Below are positions 16,629 through 28,472 of a stretch of DNA of 64,000 nt, piece by piece (position 1 is the first letter of the stretch; the number at the start of each line of letters is the position of its first letter). Location of the stretch: the NCBI RefSeq assembly GCF_002930105.1, contig NZ_PJRN01000005.1, forward strand, positions 186,001 to 250,000, written 5' to 3'. The translations under genes were made by a program, and so were the position numbers. Source of the stretch: Billgrantia saliphila (GTDB taxonomy: Bacteria > Pseudomonadota > Gammaproteobacteria > Pseudomonadales > Halomonadaceae). Below the pieces are notes generated by a model. The model did no database searches. It had not been told where the DNA came from and saw only the letters and a program-made list of their open reading frames with translations.

Positions 16629-17585
16629 ATGCGCAACGAGAGACAGGAACCGAATCCGCCGGTGGTGCTGGTGCTGGCAGGACACGACCCCACCGGTGGG
16701 GCGGGACTCGTGGCCGACAGCGAAGCGATCGCCGCCTGCGGCGGCTGGGCCATGACGATACCGACGGCGCTCACGGTGCAGGATTGTTGCGACGTTCACC
16801 GCGTCGTCCCCGTCGATGCCGATCTGATCCGCGACATGGCAGCTGCCCTGTCATCGACACCGATCGCGGCGATCAAGGTGGGGCTGGTGGCCAGCAGCGA
16901 CACACTCGACGCCGTGGTGGCCATCGTGCGTGACCGTCCCGGCGTCCCGGTGGTCGTCGATCCGGTGCTCAAGGCGGGCGGTGGCGCAGAGTTATCCACA
17001 ACCGAGCTGGTCGAGGCGTTCCGTACTCGACTGCTGCCGCTGGTGGATGTTCTGACCCCCAATCGTCTGGAGCTGGAGCGGTTCACGGATGGCGCCGGTC
17101 AGGACGATAGGGCGCGCGCCGAGCGGCTGCTGACGTCGGGCTGCGACGCCGTACTGGTGACCGGAACCGACGATCCCGAGGCGGACGTGCCGGCCGGCGA
17201 AGTGCAGCAGGTGCTCTACTGTGCCGAAGGACGCTTCGCCTGGCGCTGGCCGCGGCTGGCGGGGCGATACCATGGGTCCGGCTGTACCCTGGCAGCGGCG
17301 TTGGCGGCTCGCCTGGCGCTCGGCGAGTCGCTGCATGAGGCTTGCGAGCGGGCCCAGGCCTTCGCTTGGCGCGCTCTGGCACGAGCCTGGCAGCCTTCCG
17401 TCGGGCAAGCGCTGCCTCGTCGGCTGGCAGGCTTGGAAGCGGCGAGCGGGCACAATGCCGGAACGCACCAGTCGAATACGCCCGACATGGGCGAAGATCA
17501 CCGCTATTTCACCGGGCATGCCAAGGTTATCCAGAAAACTATCCACAGCCCGTCTTCAACACTTCGTGACTTCAAAGAGGCTCAC
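16629..17585 (+). CDS. thiD: Hydroxymethylpyrimidine/phosphomethylpyrimidine kinase ThiD, reading on into hemL
   Basis: ThiD phosphorylates HMP and HMP-P for thiamine. The substrate loop [14 protein letters not shown] (residues 17-30), the catalytic end [17 protein letters not shown] and the PVLKAGGG motif are intact; the kinase ends near residue 273. There is no stop: the frame continues through about 46 linker residues straight into hemL at 17586. It could be a true ThiD-HemL fusion or a thiD whose product carries HemL when translation does not restart. A perfect DnaA box (16992-17000) lies within the gene. Confidence 0.85.
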
Positions 17586-18875
17586 ATGACCACATCCGCC
17601 ACGCTCTTCGAACAGGCTTGTCGTCACATTCCCGGTGGGGTCAACTCTCCGGTGCGCGCCTTCAAGGGGCTGCATCGCCCCCCGGTGTTCATCGAGCGGG
17701 CCCAGGGCGCCTACCTCTACGACGTGGAGGGCAATCGCTATGTCGACTATGTCGGCTCCTGGGGGCCGATGATCACCGGTCACGCCGACCCGGACGTGCT
17801 GGGCGCCGTGCGTGAACGGCTCGACAATGGGCTCTCCTTCGGCACGCCGACGGCCATCGAGACCACCATGGCCGATCTGATCTGCGAAATGATCCCGTCG
17901 ATCGACCTGGTGCGCATGGTCAATTCGGGTACCGAAGCCACCATGTCGGCCATCCGACTGGCGCGAGGCTTCACCGGACGCGACAAGATCGTCAAGTTCG
18001 AGGGCAACTACCATGGCCACTCCGACTCGCTGCTGGTCAAGGCCGGTTCCGGTGCCCTGACCCATGGCGAACCCAGTTCGCCGGGGGTGCCGGCATCGTT
18101 GGCCGAACACACCATAACCCTGTCCTACAACGATCTCGACGCCGTCGATGCGTGCTTCGAGGAGATCGGCAGCGAGATCGCCTGCATCATTGTCGAGCCG
18201 GTAGCCGGCAACATGAATTGCATTCCGCCCTTGCCCGGATTTCTCGAAACCCTGCGTCGGGTTTGCACCGAGTACGGCAGTGTGCTGATCTTCGATGAGG
18301 TAATGACCGGCTTTCGCGTCGCCATGGGTGGCGCCCAGGCGCACTTCGGCATCGAGCCCGACCTGACCTGTCTGGGCAAGATCGTCGGCGGCGGTATGCC
18401 GGTGGGAGCGTTCGGCGGCAAGCGCGACATCATGGAGCGAATTTCGCCGCTGGGGCCGGTCTACCAGGCCGGTACGCTCTCCGGCAATCCGCTGGCCATG
18501 GCCGCCGGCATCGCACTGCTGACCAAGCTGCGCGAGCCCGGCTTCCACGATGCGCTGGCGCAGCGTGTCGATACGCTGTGTCATGGACTGCAGGAGCGTG
18601 CCGATGCGGCCGGTATCGACATGATCACCCAAGGGGTGGGCGGCATGTTCGGGTTGTTCTTCACCGCGCAGTCGCGGGTCGACAACTTCGCCCAGGCGAC
18701 GGCCTGCGACGCCGAGGCTTTTCGGCGCTTCTTCGCCGCGATGCTGGACGAGGGAGTCTATTTGGCACCCTCGGCGTATGAGGCGGGCTTCATGTCCAGT
18801 GCGCATACGCCGGAAGACATTCAACTGACGCTGGACGCCGCCGAGAGGGCCTTTGCCCAGCTGCGCCAGCCCTGA
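17586..18875 (+). CDS. hemL: Glutamate-1-semialdehyde 2,1-aminomutase
   Basis: 429 residues from ATG 17586 (E. coli 426). PLP enzyme making 5-aminolevulinate in the C5 heme pathway. Start signature [23 protein letters not shown]-lysine in [18 protein letters not shown] near residue 265, and [10 protein letters not shown] upstream. AAGAGG lies five bases before the ATG, so independent initiation is likely even though the upstream thiD frame is continuous with it. HemJ nearby fits the pathway. Confidence 0.95.
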
Positions 18876-18906: not shown

Positions 18907-20151
18907 ATGGAGGCTACATCGGCGAGCTGTTCCCCGGCAGCATCCACTGCGCTCAGCTTGGATGAGCTGGTCGATTCGCTGGTGGAATCTCATCGTTCGC
19001 TTGTCGGCGACCTGCCCTACGTGTCGTCGACCAGTTGCCTCGCGGCGACCCGAGCTCTGATCGAGGAGGAACTGGGCACGCTCGAGCGACATCTTGTCGG
19101 AGAGGAGGATGCGGCCCGGCTCGCTGGACTGAGGGAGTGGCTGGCGCAGGAGCTGGTGCGCCTCGAGCCGCAATTTCTCGAACGCGAGGAGCCGCAGCCG
19201 AGCTGGGTGGTGGGACGTCGCGTCATGTCGCTGTGCGATCATCAGCGGTTGATCATGACCAATGCGCTGGATCTCGACCCCACGGATTCGCTGGCCAGGC
19301 GCTGCCTGGATCCCGGCTTCGATCTGGTATCGCTACTAGTGGGGTTGTACATACGCGACGAGACGCGGCTGGCGCATTATGCCTTGGATCGCTACCTACG
19401 CCTCTCCGGCGACTACGCCCTGGCCCGGCTGCTATCGGTCTACGGAGTGTGTCGAGCGCTGGCGGGTGCGCGCAGGGCACTGCAGCGGCGAGAGGCGGAG
19501 CATTCCCGGTCGTTTCATCTGGCCGAGATCATGACGGAGGTGCGTCGCTATCTGGCCTTGGCCGAATGGGTCTCCCAGTTCCGCTTTCCGCCCCTGATCC
19601 TCGGGGTCGGTGTCTCGGGCAGCGGGAAGAGTCGGTTCATGGCCGAGATGGTTGAACGACTGGGGGCGGTACGGCTCTGCTCGGATGCCGAGCGACGGCG
19701 ACTCTATGGAATCGCTCCACAGGCGGTGGGTCGGGAACCGCCTGTGGATATCTTTTCTGCCGAAGCTACCACACGTACCTATCAACGCCTGGCGAGTCTC
19801 GCCGGTATTCTGCTCAACGCCGGTATTCCCACCTGTGTCGATGCGACCTGCCTGACCCGGGAGCAGCGTGGCTGTCTTCGTCAGCAGGGCGAGGCAAGAG
19901 GCCTGCCGGTATTGATCGTCAGTTTCGAGGCTGACGACGAAACCCTGAAGGCCCGCATCGCCAAGCGCGCCCGGCGACAGGGCGCCAATCCTGCGACCAG
20001 TCTCGCAGTGCTGCAGCGCCAGCAAGCCACTTTCGAGGACTTCAGCGACGAGGAGCGGCAGCATCTGCTGCGACTCGACACCACTGCCGAAAATGCAGGC
20101 GATACGCTGGCGGCGCTCGTCGACAAACGTATCAGGCTGAACTACAGCTGA
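18907..20151 (+). CDS. Degenerate APH-like / P-loop kinase two-domain protein
   Basis: 414 residues from ATG 18907 with GGAGGAG upstream. The C-terminal half is a zeta-toxin/AAA_33-type P-loop domain: Walker A GVSGSGKS at 235-242, later VDATCLTREQR and RIAKRARRQG. Residues 110-195 resemble the second half of the aminoglycoside-phosphotransferase-like domain that precedes such kinases in COG0645/COG2187 proteins (LDLDPTDSLARRC, FDLVSLLVGLYIRDE, LSGDYALARLLSVYGVCRA). The usual HGDLHxxN catalytic loop is absent; SLCDHQRL stands there. Function unknown. The next gene starts 7 bases on and reuses its stop region as ribosome site. Confidence 0.7.
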   Translation: MEATSASCSPAASTALSLDELVDSLVESHRSLVGDLPYVSSTSCLAATRALIEEELGTLERHLVGEEDAARLAGLREWLAQELVRLEPQFLEREEPQPSWVVGRRVMSLCDHQRLIMTNALDLDPTDSLARRCLDPGFDLVSLLVGLYIRDETRLAHYALDRYLRLSGDYALARLLSVYGVCRALAGARRALQRREAEHSRSFHLAEIMTEVRRYLALAEWVSQFRFPPLILGVGVSGSGKSRFMAEMVERLGAVRLCSDAERRRLYGIAPQAVGREPPVDIFSAEATTRTYQRLASLAGILLNAGIPTCVDATCLTREQRGCLRQQGEARGLPVLIVSFEADDETLKARIAKRARRQGANPATSLAVLQRQQATFEDFSDEERQHLLRLDTTAENAGDTLAALVDKRIRLNYS

Positions 20152-20158
20152 GGCTAGC

Positions 20159-20533
20159 ATGACAAGATCGCTTACCCTCCTGATGATTGTCCTGTTCGGG
20201 ATGAACGTGTTCGCAGCGGGAGACAATGCCATGTCCAAGGTTGTAATGCCGGAGAATGGGAATTCCGACAACCTGATTGAAATCCTCTTCCATGGTGAGC
20301 CAGGCACACGTTTCGTGGCGACGCTAAAAATCCATCTCAATGGGGAAACCACTACCCATGAGCTGGAGGAAAGCGTCCCTAGCGAGCATCGCTATTACGG
20401 AGAGGCGTTGGAAGCCAGCGTGCGCCAGACGAGCTCCGAGGGAGGCCTGACGGTAGAGGTTCGCAAGGGCGGGAATGTCAGTCGCTCAAGCTCAAGCGGA
20501 GAACATAGCCAGCTTAGCCTGCAAGTTCGATAG
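20159..20533 (+). CDS. Small secreted protein, possibly a CsgC/CsgH-like curli chaperone
   Basis: 124 residues. Signal peptide MTRSLTLLMIVLFGMNVFA, cleavage near residue 20. The mature part is about 100 residues of alternating polar/hydrophobic strands (IEILFHGEPG, FVATLKIHL, GGLTVEVRKGG), which fits an Ig-like beta-sandwich. Periplasmic CsgC/CsgH chaperones are of this size and fold and the csg locus is 1 kb away, but no diagnostic residue (such as the CsgC CxC pair) is seen. GAGG overlapping the upstream stop suggests co-expression with the P-loop gene. Function call is tentative. Confidence 0.55.
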   Translation: MTRSLTLLMIVLFGMNVFAAGDNAMSKVVMPENGNSDNLIEILFHGEPGTRFVATLKIHLNGETTTHELEESVPSEHRYYGEALEASVRQTSSEGGLTVEVRKGGNVSRSSSSGEHSQLSLQVR

Positions 20534-20592: not shown

Positions 20593-21354
20593 CTATAGCC
20601 AGCCTTTCGCCATGCTGGCGATAAAGTTTCTGGATACTCTGACTGGCGAACTGATTGCTTTCCTCACATGCCTTGTTCTATATCTCAAAATTGCATCGCT
20701 GGGAAGGCGATATCCCATACCCTCTTCTATTGTGTAAATGCAAGGGTTGCATATACCACATGGTTTATCGGCTTTGGGGTTGAAGCAAAACCATGACTTC
20801 TCTAATTCCTCCCTGAAGCCAAGGTTCTTGGCCTGCTCTCGCATTTCAGCTTTTGATAATTCCAAGAGAGGAAAGGAAAAGCACGAAAAGATCTTTATGT
20901 CTCCTTCGGCATTACCTCTCAACTTCCAGCGGCCACAGGTTCCTTTTTCTACATTTCCTTGTAAAAAAAGATAAGCTTTATCGTCGACATGAACGCTAAG
21001 CTCGAGGTCATTAATTTTTTTCGACCTGGCATACCTTGAAAGCCAATCATATTGTTTGCCAAGGTGAGATTTTTCCTTTAGTTTTAGATAAGAGGTTGTT
21101 ATTTCTTCTATTGGCTCGATTTCGGTAATTAAAGTTATGTTAAGAGCTCCTATTCTTGCGGCGGCATCTCTGTTATTCTTCTTAAATTCATTTCTTATCT
21201 CAGATATTGCCTTGAGTTCATGAAGGCTGGATTTTCTGTTTAAATCAATAATGTAATGAGGTTTTACTTCATTTTTATCAACCAGAGTGGAAAATAACAC
21301 TCGAAAAGTGGAATCCCACCCACCAGTCCAAAGGACATTAATAGTCTTGCACAT
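20593..21354 (-). CDS. QueC-like N-type ATP pyrophosphatase (PP-loop) of unknown substrate
   Basis: 253 residues from ATG 21354, which has GGGAG eight bases upstream. PP-loop LWTGGWDSTFR at residues 8-18 (GGxDS type). A cysteine cluster C190-X8-C199-X2-C202-X2-C205 matches the spacing of the QueC zinc site. The rest diverges from standard QueC (7-cyano-7-deazaguanine synthase), and no queuosine gene is nearby. Strikingly AT-rich: 19 of 60 bases are G/C in 21061-21120, against 41 of 60 in 2161-2220 of atpA, and codon choice differs from its neighbours. Probably acquired horizontally. Confidence 0.75.
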   Translation of the reverse strand: MCKTINVLWTGGWDSTFRVLFSTLVDKNEVKPHYIIDLNRKSSLHELKAISEIRNEFKKNNRDAAARIGALNITLITEIEPIEEITTSYLKLKEKSHLGKQYDWLSRYARSKKINDLELSVHVDDKAYLFLQGNVEKGTCGRWKLRGNAEGDIKIFSCFSFPLLELSKAEMREQAKNLGFREELEKSWFCFNPKADKPCGICNPCIYTIEEGMGYRLPSDAILRYRTRHVRKAISSPVRVSRNFIASMAKGWL

Positions 21355-21510: not shown

Positions 21511-22476
21511 TTAGTGTTGATAGACGTGAGCCGTGTTGCCGCCGCCCACTTGAGTGGTAATGGCAGCGTTGTTGACGCCCATTTGTACATGGGTTGCACT
21601 GTTGCTGGCCAAGCTTGCCAGGCCACCAAAGAACCCCGGCAACGCCGACTGGGTGATGGAAGAGTAATGTTCATACCCAGACTGAGAGGAGTATGCTACA
21701 TCGTTGTAGCCGCTCTGGGTAACTTCTGACTGGTGATAACGACCATCCTGAACGATGGAAGCGTCATTATTGACTCCACTCTGATCCACCATCGCGATAT
21801 TCAGTTTACCATCCTGGTGGATGTCAGAGGTGTTTTTCAGTCCGCTTTGGAGCACTTCTGCCTTGTTCTGAGTGCCGTTCTGGTCAATTGAAGAATCATT
21901 GAAACTGCCGCTTTGATCAACGTCGGCAAAATTGTAATCGCCCGATTGAGTGATATCGGAGGAGAGCTTGGTGCCGTCCTGGTTTACCTGCGCGACGTTC
22001 AAATAACCTTCTTGATCCACGTCAGAGTTGTTGAAGCTTCCACTTTGACTGATGTCGGCATAGTTTCTCCAGCCGCTCTGATAAGTGGTAGCATTGTTCT
22101 TTACGCCTTCCTGCTCGACTCGAAGGGCATTCCCAGTTCCGAGTTGCTGACTGTCGGAGTTATTGAACATCCCCGATTGGGTCAAATCAAAGCTGTTTTT
22201 CGTACCGTGCTGTAACGCATCGGCATTGTTTCCCATGCCTTCTTGGTCGATGTCCGATACGTTGCGGCCACGCCATCCTTGCTGAAGAACGGTTGCACCG
22301 TTGTTGACGCCAACTTGGGTGACATCAGAGTTGTTGTTGCCCCAACCCTGTGTAAGTTGCGTTACACTTACGTCGTTGCCGAATCCCGTCTGGGCGATGT
22401 TCGACTCGTTTTCGTTCGCCAAGGCTGTGCTAGAGACGGCGATAGCGGCTGCCATGACTGTCATTTTAAGTTTCAT
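21511..22476 (-). CDS. csgA: Major curlin subunit CsgA-like, expanded repeats
   Basis: 321 residues, about twice the E. coli CsgA. Signal peptide ends at ALA (residue 20). Residues 25 to about 270 are about eleven 22-residue curlin repeats with the Q-x-G-x-x-N ladder (e.g. DVDQEGYLNVAQVNQDGTK, DVTQVGVNNGATVLQQG), then a glycine-rich spacer (FFGGLASLAS) and two further strands ending HVYQH. Such repeats stack as amyloid beta-solenoid and form curli fibres outside the cell. Last gene of the csg run, 153 bases after csgB. Confidence 0.88.
   Translation of the reverse strand: MKLKMTVMAAAIAVSSTALANENESNIAQTGFGNDVSVTQLTQGWGNNNSDVTQVGVNNGATVLQQGWRGRNVSDIDQEGMGNNADALQHGTKNSFDLTQSGMFNNSDSQQLGTGNALRVEQEGVKNNATTYQSGWRNYADISQSGSFNNSDVDQEGYLNVAQVNQDGTKLSSDITQSGDYNFADVDQSGSFNDSSIDQNGTQNKAEVLQSGLKNTSDIHQDGKLNIAMVDQSGVNNDASIVQDGRYHQSEVTQSGYNDVAYSSQSGYEHYSSITQSALPGFFGGLASLASNSATHVQMGVNNAAITTQVGGGNTAHVYQH
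21667..22404 (-). repeat. Tandem 66-bp repeats encoding the curlin ladder
   Basis: About eleven copies of a diverged 66-base unit, each coding 22 residues with conserved Gln, Gly and Asn positions. Copies differ at DNA level, so this is an old duplicated protein repeat, not recent slippage. Confidence 0.75.
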
Positions 22477-22629
22477 TTTGGTTCCCCTTCATGAAGCCCT
22501 GGTTCAGCTTTTTTGCTCGCCAGGGTGGATTAAAGGAAACGACAGAGACCTGCCGTTTCCGCGTACCATCTTCAGTGATTTTTACGCATACTTAATTTCT
22601 TAGAAAGCAGCAGGCACGAAACCCAAGCC

Positions 22630-23118
22630 TTAATATTGGTAGACCTGGACCGCTGCCCTTCCACGCGAAAATTGGGTAACTGTAATCGGACTTCCTTGAC
22701 CATTACCGAGTTGATGAATTCCTGCGCTGCCGTAACTACCGTGCTGGATGATGGCCGCTTCCTTGCCGTAGCCAGCCTGCACAATGCTGGCGTCATGCCC
22801 ATATCCTTCCTGCATTATCGAGGCCTCCAGCTGGGCTCCACTCTGTATCACTCTTGCCTCATGGCCTTGTCCTATCTGGCTGACAACGGCATGATTGTCG
22901 ATGCCATATTGAGCAACGAGAGCATTGTTGTGGCTGCCTTGTTGGAGAATCGTGGCGTCGTTGCCGTAACCTTCTTGATGTATCGAGGCAACCTGCTGCG
23001 GTAGTGCCTTTGTCAGTTCGAGTTCTAATTCAGAACCTTCGATGAGGTCTGCAGCGATGGCGGAATGGGTTAGTAGCGCTGCCCCTATCAAAAGTGTAAC
23101 AATTCCGTATGTTTTCAT
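22630..23118 (-). CDS. csgB: Minor curlin / nucleator CsgB-like
   Basis: 162 residues (E. coli CsgB 151). Signal peptide MKTYGIVTLLIGAALLTHSAIA. After a charged N-terminal stretch (EGSELELELTKALPQQ) come five curlin repeats (SIHQEGYGNDATILQQGSHN, AVVSQIGQGHEARVIQSG, and so on). CsgB anchors to the outer membrane and seeds CsgA polymerisation. The tail VQVYQY resembles the CsgA tail HVYQH. It is upstream of csgA, in the usual csgBA order. Confidence 0.85.
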   Translation of the reverse strand: MKTYGIVTLLIGAALLTHSAIAADLIEGSELELELTKALPQQVASIHQEGYGNDATILQQGSHNNALVAQYGIDNHAVVSQIGQGHEARVIQSGAQLEASIMQEGYGHDASIVQAGYGKEAAIIQHGSYGSAGIHQLGNGQGSPITVTQFSRGRAAVQVYQY

Positions 23119-23288
23119 GGCAACGTGCCTGCTTCGATTTACTTTAAGTTACATAGTCGTCGTTCATGAAGCGCCTTGCCATAATGAATAAAGGTTAATT
23201 TGAGTATTAAAAATAAAGTGATCGGCGAGGATTTTTACATTAATAAGATCATTGACGATGATGAGAAATACCATGCTACACGATAAAA
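23119..23288 (-). other. csgBA upstream region (no gene)
   Basis: AT-rich stretch between the csgG terminator and csgB, the expected place for the csgBA promoter. I cannot pick a convincing -35/-10 pair; CsgD would be the expected activator by analogy with E. coli. Confidence 0.4.
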
Positions 23289-23309
23289 AAGGCGCCGAAT
23301 CGGCGCCTT
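23285..23309 (-). terminator. Terminator between csgG and csgB
   Basis: AAGGCGCCG / CGGCGCCTT, a 9-bp stem with an AAT loop, followed on the minus strand by six T. It ends the csgDEFG unit 17 bases after csgG, so csgBA needs its own promoter. Confidence 0.85.
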
Positions 23310-23325
23310 GAGAGAGCATGTCTAT

Positions 23326-24162
23326 TTACAACATGGGCGATGATGCATCACGGTAGGCCATGAGAACGGGATGATTGCTATCGCCAGGATCGGCCAAATT
23401 CCATAAATTCCTGTCCACCCCCTGAGTAACGAGGTGTATCACAGCAGACTCGATGGCAGACATGACTGCCATCTGTACAGGCTCATTGTGCGTATAGCCT
23501 GCCTCTGCTTCCAGGAGACGACGGAAACTGACAAAACGATAAACGCCCGCGCGAACTTCATACGAATAGACTGTCTTGCTGGTAGTGACATTACCGAGGA
23601 CTTCTCCAGTAGCGATGTCCACGGCGCGCAGGTTCACGGTGACCTGGTCCACCTGATACTGCCCCGATGAGCCAATTCCGAAGTATTCGGCACCCACTCC
23701 CCCCGTCTTCATATTGGAATCGTAAGCAATGATGCCTCCTTCCATCAGGATGCGGGCGGCATTGAGGGACCCCAGCTCCTGCTCGCGGCCGTTGCGTTCC
23801 AGATTGGCACGGATGATGCGCCGTTCCGTGAGAAGGTTTTGTAGCCCGACCCGCTCGAGCGGTATGAACCAGCCGGAGTCAGCCAGGGCAGAACTCAGCA
23901 TGGCGGCTCCGCCCTGGGTAACCGCCGTGGAAAACGTGCTGGCAGGCTGGGGGCGGTACTGGCCGGTTTGATCTCTGAAGTCATAGACGGCGGTATAGAT
24001 CGGTGCGGCGGGACGCGGCAGGCTGGTCAGGTCGACATAGGTACCGGATCGAGGGGCCAGGGTTGCCGGTGCTCCTTCCAGACCTTCCGGTGAGGTGACC
24101 ATACCGACGCATCCCCCCAGGAATATCAGACCGGACATCAGAACAACTCTTAAGATTTTCAT
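23326..24162 (-). CDS. csgG: Curli secretion channel lipoprotein CsgG
   Basis: 278 residues (E. coli 277). Lipoprotein signal with lipobox FLGGC, Cys18. CsgG forms a nonameric outer-membrane pore exporting curlins. Conserved segments: YDFRDQTGQYRP (residues ~65-76), FSTAVTQGGAAMLSSALADSGWF, ERVGLQNLLTERRIIR, and GGIIAYDSNMKTGGVGAEYFGIG. 12 bases after csgF. Confidence 0.95.
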   Translation of the reverse strand: MKILRVVLMSGLIFLGGCVGMVTSPEGLEGAPATLAPRSGTYVDLTSLPRPAAPIYTAVYDFRDQTGQYRPQPASTFSTAVTQGGAAMLSSALADSGWFIPLERVGLQNLLTERRIIRANLERNGREQELGSLNAARILMEGGIIAYDSNMKTGGVGAEYFGIGSSGQYQVDQVTVNLRAVDIATGEVLGNVTTSKTVYSYEVRAGVYRFVSFRRLLEAEAGYTHNEPVQMAVMSAIESAVIHLVTQGVDRNLWNLADPGDSNHPVLMAYRDASSPML

Positions 24163-24174
24163 GGTCTGGCTCTC

Positions 24175-24597
24175 TCAGAAAGGTGTTCCGAAGTCGATCC
24201 GTGTGACTTCATTCGTTGTTTTATCGGTAATGACCATTTGAAAAGCACCACCACCCACGTTGACGAACCTGACGTTCAGCGACGAATTATCGATAACGCT
24301 CTCGTTGCCCCCGGGATTGTCGGGATCGAGAGCATCATCAATGGCGCGGTTGATCAGGTCGGCACGTAGATCCTGTAAAAAGAAATCGACTTCCGAGAAG
24401 CTTCCAAAGTCGGGAGCATTCGGGTCCTTGTGCGTATCCTGCGCCTGGGCTTTGTTGAGGAGGTGGTTGCCCAGAAGCGGATCCCCTCCAAACGAAGGAT
24501 TGATTGGGCGATAGATCAGCTCTCCTGCCTGTGCCGCTCCAGCACAAGCCAATAGGCTGCCCAAGCATAGAGCTGTCACGCAGCGTAGGGTATTCAT
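24175..24597 (-). CDS. csgF: Curli assembly protein CsgF
   Basis: 140 residues from ATG 24597 with AGGAGGGG five bases upstream (E. coli 138). Signal peptide ends AAQA. Mature start GELIYRPINPSFGGDPLLGN matches the CsgF N-terminus that plugs into CsgG (NPxFGG...G). CsgF connects the pore to CsgB at the surface. Between csgE and csgG. Confidence 0.92.
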   Translation of the reverse strand: MNTLRCVTALCLGSLLACAGAAQAGELIYRPINPSFGGDPLLGNHLLNKAQAQDTHKDPNAPDFGSFSEVDFFLQDLRADLINRAIDDALDPDNPGGNESVIDNSSLNVRFVNVGGGAFQMVITDKTTNEVTRIDFGTPF

Positions 24598-24628
24598 GAC
24601 TTCCCCTCCTGTTTGTGTTCCCTTAGTA

Positions 24629-25168
24629 CTAGATTTCTTCGTCTGCCAGGTCCGGATCACTCTCCAGGGCCTCCATGATGGAGCGCTGGACCAGCAACTG
24701 CTCCACTTGCTCGACGGCTGCCTCGGCATAGCGGTCGATATCGCTGAGCCGGGGTGGCAGCGTGGCCTGGAAGAGAATCCGATTGTTTTCAGCTACCCAG
24801 ACCTGGCTGCCCCAGCGAGCGTCGGGGCGTTCATTGATTGATAGCGTGGTGCGGGTCAGGATGTGACTGTCTGCACTTAACTGGCTGAAGCGGCGGTAGA
24901 AGGTCTTGCCCATCATGGTAATTGTCCGGTCGACCACGACGCCCGCGAGACCCGGCTCGCCCAGGCGAAACTGACGCGAAAGCTCTTCGGCCGCCTCTCC
25001 TTCTTCCAGAACTTCATCCTCCTCGAGCGAGTCTTCGGAAACCGATGTCTCAGGTGGTACGGCAGGTTGGCTCGGAGCGGGTGCGTGAGTTTCCGCCCAA
25101 GCCAGCGAGCCACAGGAGATCAGCAGGACGACAGCCACAACCATTGCTAGCTCACGTAGACAAACCAT
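24629..25168 (-). CDS. csgE: Curli secretion adaptor CsgE
   Basis: 179 residues, longer than the E. coli 129 because of an acidic linker after the signal peptide (SVSEDSLEEDEVLEEGEAAEEL, residues ~42-63; only part essential). The CsgE domain follows: GLAGVVVDRTITMMGKTFYRRF, then the QVWVAENNRILFQATLPPR strand. CsgE caps CsgG and delivers substrates. The signal LLISCGSLAWA could be read as a lipobox (LISC) or as a normal AWA cleavage site; the latter fits the family. Confidence 0.88.
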   Translation of the reverse strand: MVCLRELAMVVAVVLLISCGSLAWAETHAPAPSQPAVPPETSVSEDSLEEDEVLEEGEAAEELSRQFRLGEPGLAGVVVDRTITMMGKTFYRRFSQLSADSHILTRTTLSINERPDARWGSQVWVAENNRILFQATLPPRLSDIDRYAEAAVEQVEQLLVQRSIMEALESDPDLADEEI

Positions 25169-25229
25169 TCCGCTCTCGATTGGATGTTTGATGGGTTTTT
25201 CCGCAGCGCCGAGGTATCTCGGAGAGAGG

Positions 25230-25244
25230 CGGGCCCAAGGCCCG
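25230..25244 (-). other. Small hairpin between csgD and csgE
   Basis: CGGGCC-CAA-GGCCCG in the 215-base csgD-csgE gap. No T-run. Together with the gap length it may mark a processing point or a separate csgEFG leader; no promoter is obvious. Confidence 0.3.
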
Positions 25245-25383
25245 TCCCCTGAAGCGACAGCCGTGCGGCCGTCCCTTGGCCGCTACGACATGCCGGGCAC
25301 ACCGTCGCCAGAGATGACCTCTCGGGGGCCATCCATGAAGGTGCCTGCCCCCGGTGCGCCGGCAACGGCTACCTTTCGCTTGG

Positions 25384-26055
25384 TCAATGCCTCGCTTCCC
25401 GCTTGTGATTGGGCGGTACGCTGAACAGGTTGCGTCGTGCCCAGTTCATCGCCTGCAGGCGATTGTGTACCTTGATCTTGCGGAAGATGTTGTAAAGATG
25501 GGATTTGACGGTGTGTTCGCTGACGAACAGCTTCTCGGCGATCTCCGAGTTGGTCGAGCCAGTGCCTAGCAGTCCGATGATCTCGAGTTCACGCTGTGTC
25601 AGACCGCACGCGGGCCTGTAGGAGTTCATCTGCTGGCGCCGCAGCAGTTGGATCATGCGTGACATGAGTGCTCGCGACATCCACAGGTTACCGAGGCGCA
25701 ATGCCTCCAGCCCCTTGCAGATCAGCTCGACGCTGTCGTTGCGATAGAAGATTCCCTGCAGATTGAGCGATGAAAGTAGCTCGACGGCATGATCTTCACT
25801 GCGAACATTGAAGGCAGCGAGACTGATCTCTTCCCTTCCCCCGGCGACGGACTGCCATTTCTGCATGCTCGCTTCGCTCAGGTGATCAAGGTCGAGTATG
25901 ACCAGTACCACTTGACCCTCCTCAAGGGTCGGTACTTCCTCGGTACTGACGGCCGTGACGGCATGGCCGATATGCTCCTGCAAATGTTCGATGAACAGCT
26001 TCGACTGAGGGTTGATATCCGTGACCAGCATGATCCGATAAGGCGTATTTTCCAT
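25384..26055 (-). CDS. csgD: CsgD-family LuxR-type transcriptional regulator
   Basis: 223 residues (E. coli CsgD 216). The N-terminal receiver-like domain (YRIMLVTDINPQSKLFIEHLQEH) lacks the full phospho-acceptor set, as in CsgD. LuxR/FixJ helix-turn-helix at about 145-210: LTQRELEIIGLLGTGSTNSEIAEKL then VSEHTVKSHLYNIFRKI. First gene of the csgDEFG unit, so likely controls curli and biofilm matrix. It is preceded by a long AT-rich control region, as in enterobacteria. Confidence 0.88.
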   Translation of the reverse strand: MENTPYRIMLVTDINPQSKLFIEHLQEHIGHAVTAVSTEEVPTLEEGQVVLVILDLDHLSEASMQKWQSVAGGREEISLAAFNVRSEDHAVELLSSLNLQGIFYRNDSVELICKGLEALRLGNLWMSRALMSRMIQLLRRQQMNSYRPACGLTQRELEIIGLLGTGSTNSEIAEKLFVSEHTVKSHLYNIFRKIKVHNRLQAMNWARRNLFSVPPNHKREARH

Positions 26056-26662: not shown

Positions 26663-28039
<1,377 letters not shown>

Positions 28040-28472
28040 TATCGCTCGTCCCTTTTTCATTCCTTCGATTTCAAGCAGGCCTGATCAAGTCCCTTGCCTT
28101 CTCGGCGTGCCTTGAGTCGATTTTCTCTGTGTGTTTTTCTTCCTTCGCGTTACGCAATCAAGGGCCTTTACGATAGCGATACGACGTATGCATTTCGTAA
28201 GCTCTAATGTAAATGAGGTTTATTCTCTAATGATTTTCGTTTCGTCATGGCCTGTCTTGTCCATCTCTTGGGCGATATGGGCATCGAGAGACGAGCTGTA
28301 AAGATAGGTTACTGCTTGGTTCGCAACAAGTTCATCTCGCCATAACCCTATGCGCATTCAAGCTTCTAAGCTAAGCGGGAAGTGGGAGACTTCTCGTTCG
28401 GAAATGGTTCAGCATGAGGGTGAGCCTCAGGTACCATGGCGCTACCGAACGAAGATACGAAGAGGAAACGCA
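28040..28472. other. Intergenic region between the VpsR-like gene and rdgB
   Basis: 433 bases, divergent genes either side, AT-rich from about 28080 to 28340. It must hold promoters for both but I cannot assign boxes with confidence. No gene or RNA is recognised. Confidence 0.35.

Follow-up and report, generated by a model that had tools for sequence, protein, structure and literature searches.

Why does the gene for a small and probably secreted protein, here termed S, lie between the gene for a P-loop kinase and a complete curli cluster, and with which of these neighbours does it belong? The question is raised by a window of 64,000 nucleotides (the whole stretch of DNA analysed) on contig C43 of the 4.3 Mb genome of Billgrantia saliphila, which is Halomonas-like by its sequence. 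The initial annotation treated the P-loop protein and S as a pair, and its description of the two reading frames has been borne out. The 414-residue protein carries an intact Walker A kinase domain (GVSGSGKS, within an AAA_33 match at residues 230–377, E 6e-32) and a degenerate phosphotransferase half that lacks the HGDLHxxN loop. Seven bases beyond it begins a 124-residue protein with an N-terminus that resembles a signal peptide when judged by eye, and a GAGG, similar to a ribosome site, overlaps the TGA stop of the P-loop gene.

The curli cluster, csgA-B-G-F-E-D, occupies positions 21511–26055, starts approximately 1 kb downstream of S and is arranged tail-to-tail with it (table 1). The usual gene order in mapped loci is ClC, HemJ, ThiD-like, HemL, the P-loop gene where present, S and then the facing csgA-B-G-F-E-D, with hemL as the upstream neighbour of S in most; these neighbour maps were built with ClC, hem, thiD, P-loop, PP-loop, S, CsgH and csg queries. 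Among named loci, Billgrantia pellis has the S nearest to that of the window (75% identity), and its P-loop protein (L031) is approximately 95% identical to the window's.

Several features of the window strain deserve separate mention. The ThiD-like and HemL matches (residues 20–257 and about 319–746) lie in an uninterrupted frame of 748 aa, which reflects either a fused gene or an intergenic stretch that is itself open; they are separate matches in other mapped loci. The QueC-like gene separates S from csgA, while S and the curlin genes are almost adjacent in several relatives. Just past the CsgD-like gene, at 26663–28060, lies a sigma-54 activator in which Pfam recognizes a VpsR domain (E 5e-12); together with the CsgD-like gene and its VpsT-like receiver it makes two adjoining biofilm-type regulators. 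Patterns resembling promoters or terminators near these genes were no commoner than in shuffled sequence, and therefore were not used as evidence.

Table 1. Features of the window around S, with positions counted from the first nucleotide of the window.
Feature	Position	Strand	Remarks
ThiD-like phosphomethylpyrimidine kinase and HemL, single open frame	16629..18875	+	domain matches
P-loop kinase (AAA_33), degenerate phosphotransferase remnant in N-terminal half	18907..20151	+	414 aa
S, small probably secreted beta-sandwich protein	20159..20533	+	124 aa, no cysteine, curli-linked
QueC-like PP-loop ATPase gene	20593..21354	-	QueC, E 6e-7; start codon inferred
Curlin subunit, csgA position	21511..22476	-	10 curlin repeats, Pfam E 5e-38; top NCBIfam model CsgB
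Curlin subunit, csgB position	22630..23118	-	4 curlin repeats, Pfam E 1e-19
CsgG outer-membrane curli exporter	23326..24162	-	Pfam E 1e-78
CsgF	24175..24597	-	Pfam E 3e-20; start picked from ORF
CsgE	24629..25168	-	Pfam E 1e-26
CsgD-like LuxR-type regulator	25384..26055	-	top NCBIfam model CsgD, E 1e-39, 136 bits (cut-off 250 bits); Pfam: VpsT-like receiver

Conservation and distribution of S

S is, on the evidence of its conservation, a real gene: homologues in alignment A1 (the best 30 of 94 S sequences) are 31–75% identical to the S of the window, and median dN/dS of the core is low, at 0.035, in pairs where both genomes have csg (23 usable of 55). The corresponding medians are 0.055 in mixed pairs, one genome with csg and one without (29 usable of 110), and 0.078 in pairs without csg (10 usable of 45); the pairs are non-independent, and those with dS outside 0.05–1.5 were dropped. 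The protein represents a curli-linked, probably secreted beta-sandwich family that is unnamed in the libraries searched. Neither Pfam nor NCBIfam gave a convincing match; the best Pfam hit over the 30 aligned members was DUF1932 (E 0.014, in a single member), and a sequence-profile search of the PDB returned at best a designed protein (E 0.094). S is named in no paper found, a search that did not cover the supplement of PMC4838910, which might list S among its gamma sub-families.

Among the genomes searched, S was found only in this bacterial family. A class-wide search, on a thin sample with at most 12 candidates scored per genome, detected S in one of 350 genomes (that of the window), and an order-wide search, also thinly sampled, in two of 115, both within the family. 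The plasmid search produced a lone match at E 0.4, and the contig search returned four relatives together with L035, which is short and probably due to chance.

Within the family, S tracks the csg cluster and is co-inherited with it. S was detected in 94 of 275 genomes (E ≤ 0.01) and CsgF in 107, a sub-cut-off second match in G167 being left out of the latter count. Both were found in 79 genomes, S only in 15, CsgF only in 28 and neither in 153; the Fisher p of 2e-29 for this association is uncorrected for phylogeny and overstates the evidence because the genomes are related. The initial annotation had wondered whether the small protein accompanies csg genes, and the presence of csgF in 79 of the 94 S genomes, like the complete cluster beside S in the window, indicates that it does. 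The two genes share a contig in 77 of the 79 genomes, in every case convergently and with a gap of 2.5–9.1 kb, and are split over contigs in the remaining two (G106, G195). S lies on the csgA/B side of the cluster in mapped loci with both, and two of the S-only genomes (G212, G257) have curlin repeats beside S where the csg cluster is cut by the contig end. Distances between S sequences also correlate with those between CsgG sequences (Mantel r 0.66 over 18 loci, after L033 and L034, whose loci hold no full CsgG, were dropped). For the 11 loci that also hold hemL, r is 0.75 for S and CsgG, 0.65 for S and HemL and 0.50 for CsgG and HemL, with partial values of 0.64 for S and CsgG given HemL and 0.48 for S and HemL given CsgG.

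S is not essential to curli, since 28 of the 107 csgF genomes lack it; a profile search for S was also negative in all 28, while the same profile did find the genome of the window. CsgH scored over its model cut-off in nine of these 28 genomes, compared with none of the 94 S genomes. A match in G161 (E 1.5e-4, below the cut-off) was left out of the nine, and sub-cut-off matches in G183, G186 and G193, which fall in frames of 1343–2648 aa, were treated as chance. Three of the nine CsgH loci were mapped (L094, L095, L096); they have a CsgG of 40–43% identity and no CsgE match, apparently a curli cluster of separate origin. The exclusivity of S and CsgH may merely separate cluster types, because the mapped CsgH sits with a different csg cluster. 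A further 18 of the 28 genomes have no CsgH match at E ≤ 0.001 either, so some curli systems do without both S and CsgH.

Predicted fold and possible roles

Two AF2 models of S, taken from different clades, agree on a fold of eight strands (83 and 88 residues reach a pLDDT of 90 or more), and S is confidently predicted to be an eight-stranded beta-sandwich. When compared with VIA-align, both models match MmpS5 (8em5) best, with Z 10.9 and rmsd 2.1 over 84 aligned residues for one and Z 11.2 and rmsd 2.0 over 85 for the other, followed by Bacteroides entries, some labelled DUF4425 (Z 8.3–9.0). CsgC (2xsk) is matched with Z 5.8 and rmsd 3.6 over 72 aligned residues, and CsgH (2n59) with Z 4.7 (rmsd 2.9) and 4.5 for the two models over 71. 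These CsgC and CsgH matches, with Z below 8, may reflect no more than a common arrangement of strands. Both surfaced in the VIA-align comparison, where CsgH but not CsgC was among the matches listed for the second model; a Foldseek search with the S model gave no match at E 0.001 and neither protein among the best 50 of 716 matches.

By analogy, we lean towards reading S as a periplasmic curli accessory of Halomonas-like bacteria, with a chaperone-like role such as that of CsgC and CsgH. Both of these proteins delay amyloid nucleation through brief electrostatic contacts, as described in PMC4838910 and PMC5135000. S would be exported to the periplasm by Sec, where it would meet unfolded CsgA and CsgB before CsgE and CsgG export them, and it would suppress early amyloid nucleation by similarly brief contacts. 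S lies on the strand of hemL, not that of csg, and so may be co-transcribed with hemL, with or without the P-loop gene; it would then perhaps be present before curli is induced. The P-loop protein, which sits between hemL and S in some species, would stand outside this mechanism. A mechanism like that of CsgC and CsgH would suit the broad fold class of S, its presumed location and the position of its gene. The near-invariant residues of S include Lys103 and Arg109, beside the invariant Ser108 and Ser110, and this region is a candidate for a charged face of the kind used by CsgC (PMC4838910).

A bolder form of this reading, which we put forward tentatively, is that S constitutes a third class of curli periplasmic chaperone: a cysteine-free, MmpS-like sandwich that would have arisen in halophiles independently of CsgC and CsgH, and that would be made with a housekeeping gene and so be in place before curli is switched on. 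In such bacteria, the electrostatic mechanism reported for CsgC should be weakened by high salt. If S is an independent solution, it would separate the features that an amyloid inhibitor needs from those it can do without (the cysteines, for example), and it could also be a source of inhibitors able to act at high salt.

S could instead be another curli-linked factor, either a periplasmic adaptor or a component associated with the fibre, and not an amyloid inhibitor at all. A fold like that of MmpS5, the top match of both models, would suit a transporter adaptor or a protein that acts with the CsgG/CsgE export complex, and the linkage of S to csg, which is strong, also speaks for such a factor. 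However, function does not follow from similarity of fold, and we regard this alternative as somewhat unlikely.

It is unlikely, too, that S is a true but remote homologue of CsgC or CsgH that has lost its cysteines and diverged past recognition by sequence, a descent that would be compatible with the chaperone-like role. The broad fold class is shared, and 4 of 30 S members match the NCBIfam model of CsgH (NF041112, cut-off at least 35 bits) at E ≤ 1, the best at E 0.018; the unrelated FixL nevertheless outscored CsgH, with matches in 6 of 30 members and a best E of 0.003, and none of the 94 S genomes passes the CsgH cut-off. Aligning the profile of S to those of CsgH and CsgC with hhalign gave a weak match (probability 71% over 28 columns) whose score with CsgH, 28.9, exceeds the maxima of 10.0 from 60 column shuffles and 11.6 from the reversed profile, but the match is out of register, with the start of S placed on the end of CsgH. 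A circular permutation of CsgH is unsupported, as none of 33 rotations, including the unrotated profile, beat 28.9, although a mode switch may have favoured end-to-end alignments. In favour of homology, L065, which passes the cut-off of the CsgH model, also has no cysteines in its last 100 residues.

The hemL and P-loop neighbours

Could S belong to the hemL neighbourhood, its nearness to curli being an accident of shared position? We consider this improbable. Beyond the place of hemL upstream of S, what speaks for it is that csgF and curlin repeats are both missing from 13 of the 94 S genomes, and that a CsgD-like match occurs in 10 of 12 fetched S loci of this kind (a short piece only in L082; none in L081 and L084) as well as in two hemL loci that lack S (L054 and L055, from genomes G034 and G109). 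Those same two genomes count against it, since they have hemL and the P-loop gene with no match to S or CsgF genome-wide. S and csg are found without a hemL match in seven fetched loci (L045, L046, L047, L051, L056, L097, L098), and L058, having lost the rest of csg, still has csgE next to S together with a CsgD-like gene. A CsgD-like gene alone is no proof of a lost csg cluster, because L054 and L055 have one too; their csg content is otherwise limited to a chance-level CsgB match inside the hemL region of L054. These CsgD-like genes lie at 459–1103 of L054 and 14084–14737 of L055, about 7 kb from hemL, and no csgF, csgG or S was found in either genome.

Of the 12 fetched loci without csgF and curlin repeats, four have an interruption or frameshift in the N-terminal part of S (L058, L085, L086 and L087; the assembly behind L087 shows frameshifts elsewhere as well), and S is open, including the signal-like region, in the other eight. 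The broken copies and the rise in dN/dS from the pairs with csg to those without would fit a relaxation of constraint after curli loss, but S may have a separate role. As a side observation, the csgG match is in two pieces some 1.2–1.5 kb apart in L099 (6062–7256) and L057 (11263–12809), as if an element had been inserted, and curli loss may be under way in those genomes.

The P-loop protein has a history of its own. Its orthologues outside the genus (L044, L090, L092) have open frames of 530–535 codons that extend up to approximately 115 residues further at the N-terminus and contain the N-lobe and the motifs HGD[VIL]HLGN and FDG[IL]E[YF]N. The N-lobe and the HGDLHLGN loop are absent from all 16 aligned sequences of the genus, which keep the Walker A motif; the Walker A glycines, lysine and last serine are invariant in 19 of 19 aligned sequences. 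Pfam APH exceeds its cut-off in both full-length relatives scanned (L090, L092) and gives no listed match to the window protein at E 0.001. Sequence comparison thus identifies the window protein as a truncated version of an APH-plus-kinase protein, with a phosphotransferase half that decayed within the genus. The gene next to S is probably functional, because 84 of the 90 genomes of the genus have a match (E ≤ 1e-10). With a 514-residue query, matches were obtained in 86 of the 90, among which a near-full-query match represents a second gene alongside the short form in five (G045, G054, G072, G079, G098). In six others (G037, G044, G064, G070, G071, G101), matches begin at query residue 53–65 and contain an in-frame stop; lying upstream of the short gene, they could be decaying N-lobes and intermediates in the loss of the phosphotransferase half. 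Other short-form matches begin at query residue 82 or later, and in another set the match is confined to the APH half.

Among known systems, the P-loop gene comes nearest to the bifunctional APH/ATP-binding protein, COG2187 plus COG0645. The window protein resembles it in the C-terminal AAA_33 domain, the intact Walker A motif and an APH half that is partly alignable, and the proteins of the window's genus differ from it in the loss of the N-lobe and HGDLHLGN loop, the window protein also in the missing Pfam APH match.

The suggestion of the initial annotation that the two proteins work together as a pair is highly improbable and is rejected on co-occurrence; in its favour are the seven-base spacing and the ribosome site over the stop in the window. 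Only 16 of the 94 S genomes have the P-loop gene as the next one mapped (15 belong to the window's genus and G155 to another; the gap is 1.1 kb in G112), and the other 78 S genes have no adjacent P-loop gene. Genus g23, home to 69 of the 94 S genes, lacks any P-loop match at E ≤ 1e-10, and within the window's own genus the P-loop match is in 84 of 90 genomes against 21 of 90 for S. The initial annotation had named a failure of the two genes to co-occur as its own refutation; this is largely what is observed for the pair, but not for S and curli. The adjacency looks like an accident of position. The other part of that annotation, a possible CsgC/CsgH-like amyloid chaperone, is supported by genomic linkage and broad fold class, and not by sequence homology.

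S and known curli accessory proteins

Curli in Halomonas are already in print (PMC3521004). The same paper reports csgC only in Enterobacteriales and Aeromonadales, and CsgH-like sub-families in gammaproteobacteria were reported later (PMC4838910). Given that reported range of csgC, intracellular control of CsgA in other gammaproteobacterial curli is only partly known, and S offers a concrete, testable candidate for curli amyloid control in 94 of 275 genomes of one family.

CsgC is defined by a CxC motif and CsgH by two cysteines distant in sequence, as stated in PMC4838910. Neither the motif nor the pair occurs in S: all 30 members of alignment A1 are free of cysteine in their last 88 residues. 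From these cysteines and the model scores, S is not a demonstrated member of either family. The mature pI is 5.3 for S and 4.3 for CsgA, about 1 unit apart with cleavage sites guessed, compared with the more than 2 units above CsgA that characterize CsgC and CsgH. The E. coli protein YmdA, which is encoded beside csgC, was considered as a counterpart of S and rejected, being unlike S by eye and having cysteines.

CsgC of E. coli, like S, is a small beta-sandwich that is apparently exported, and its gene too lies at the csgA end of the cluster (in K-12, csgC is directly 3′ of csgA). The differences lie in the CxC motif, the orientation of S opposite to csgA, the moderate fold score and the lack of convincing sequence similarity. 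CsgH shares with S the broad fold class, a linkage to curlin genes and a similar size, and differs in its cysteine pair, in a model cut-off that no S genome passes and, where mapped in this family, in accompanying another type of csg cluster than S does. MmpS5, a mycobacterial transporter adaptor, is only 12–13% identical to S in sequence and resembles it in fold alone, yet it is in fold that S finds its best match among these known systems.
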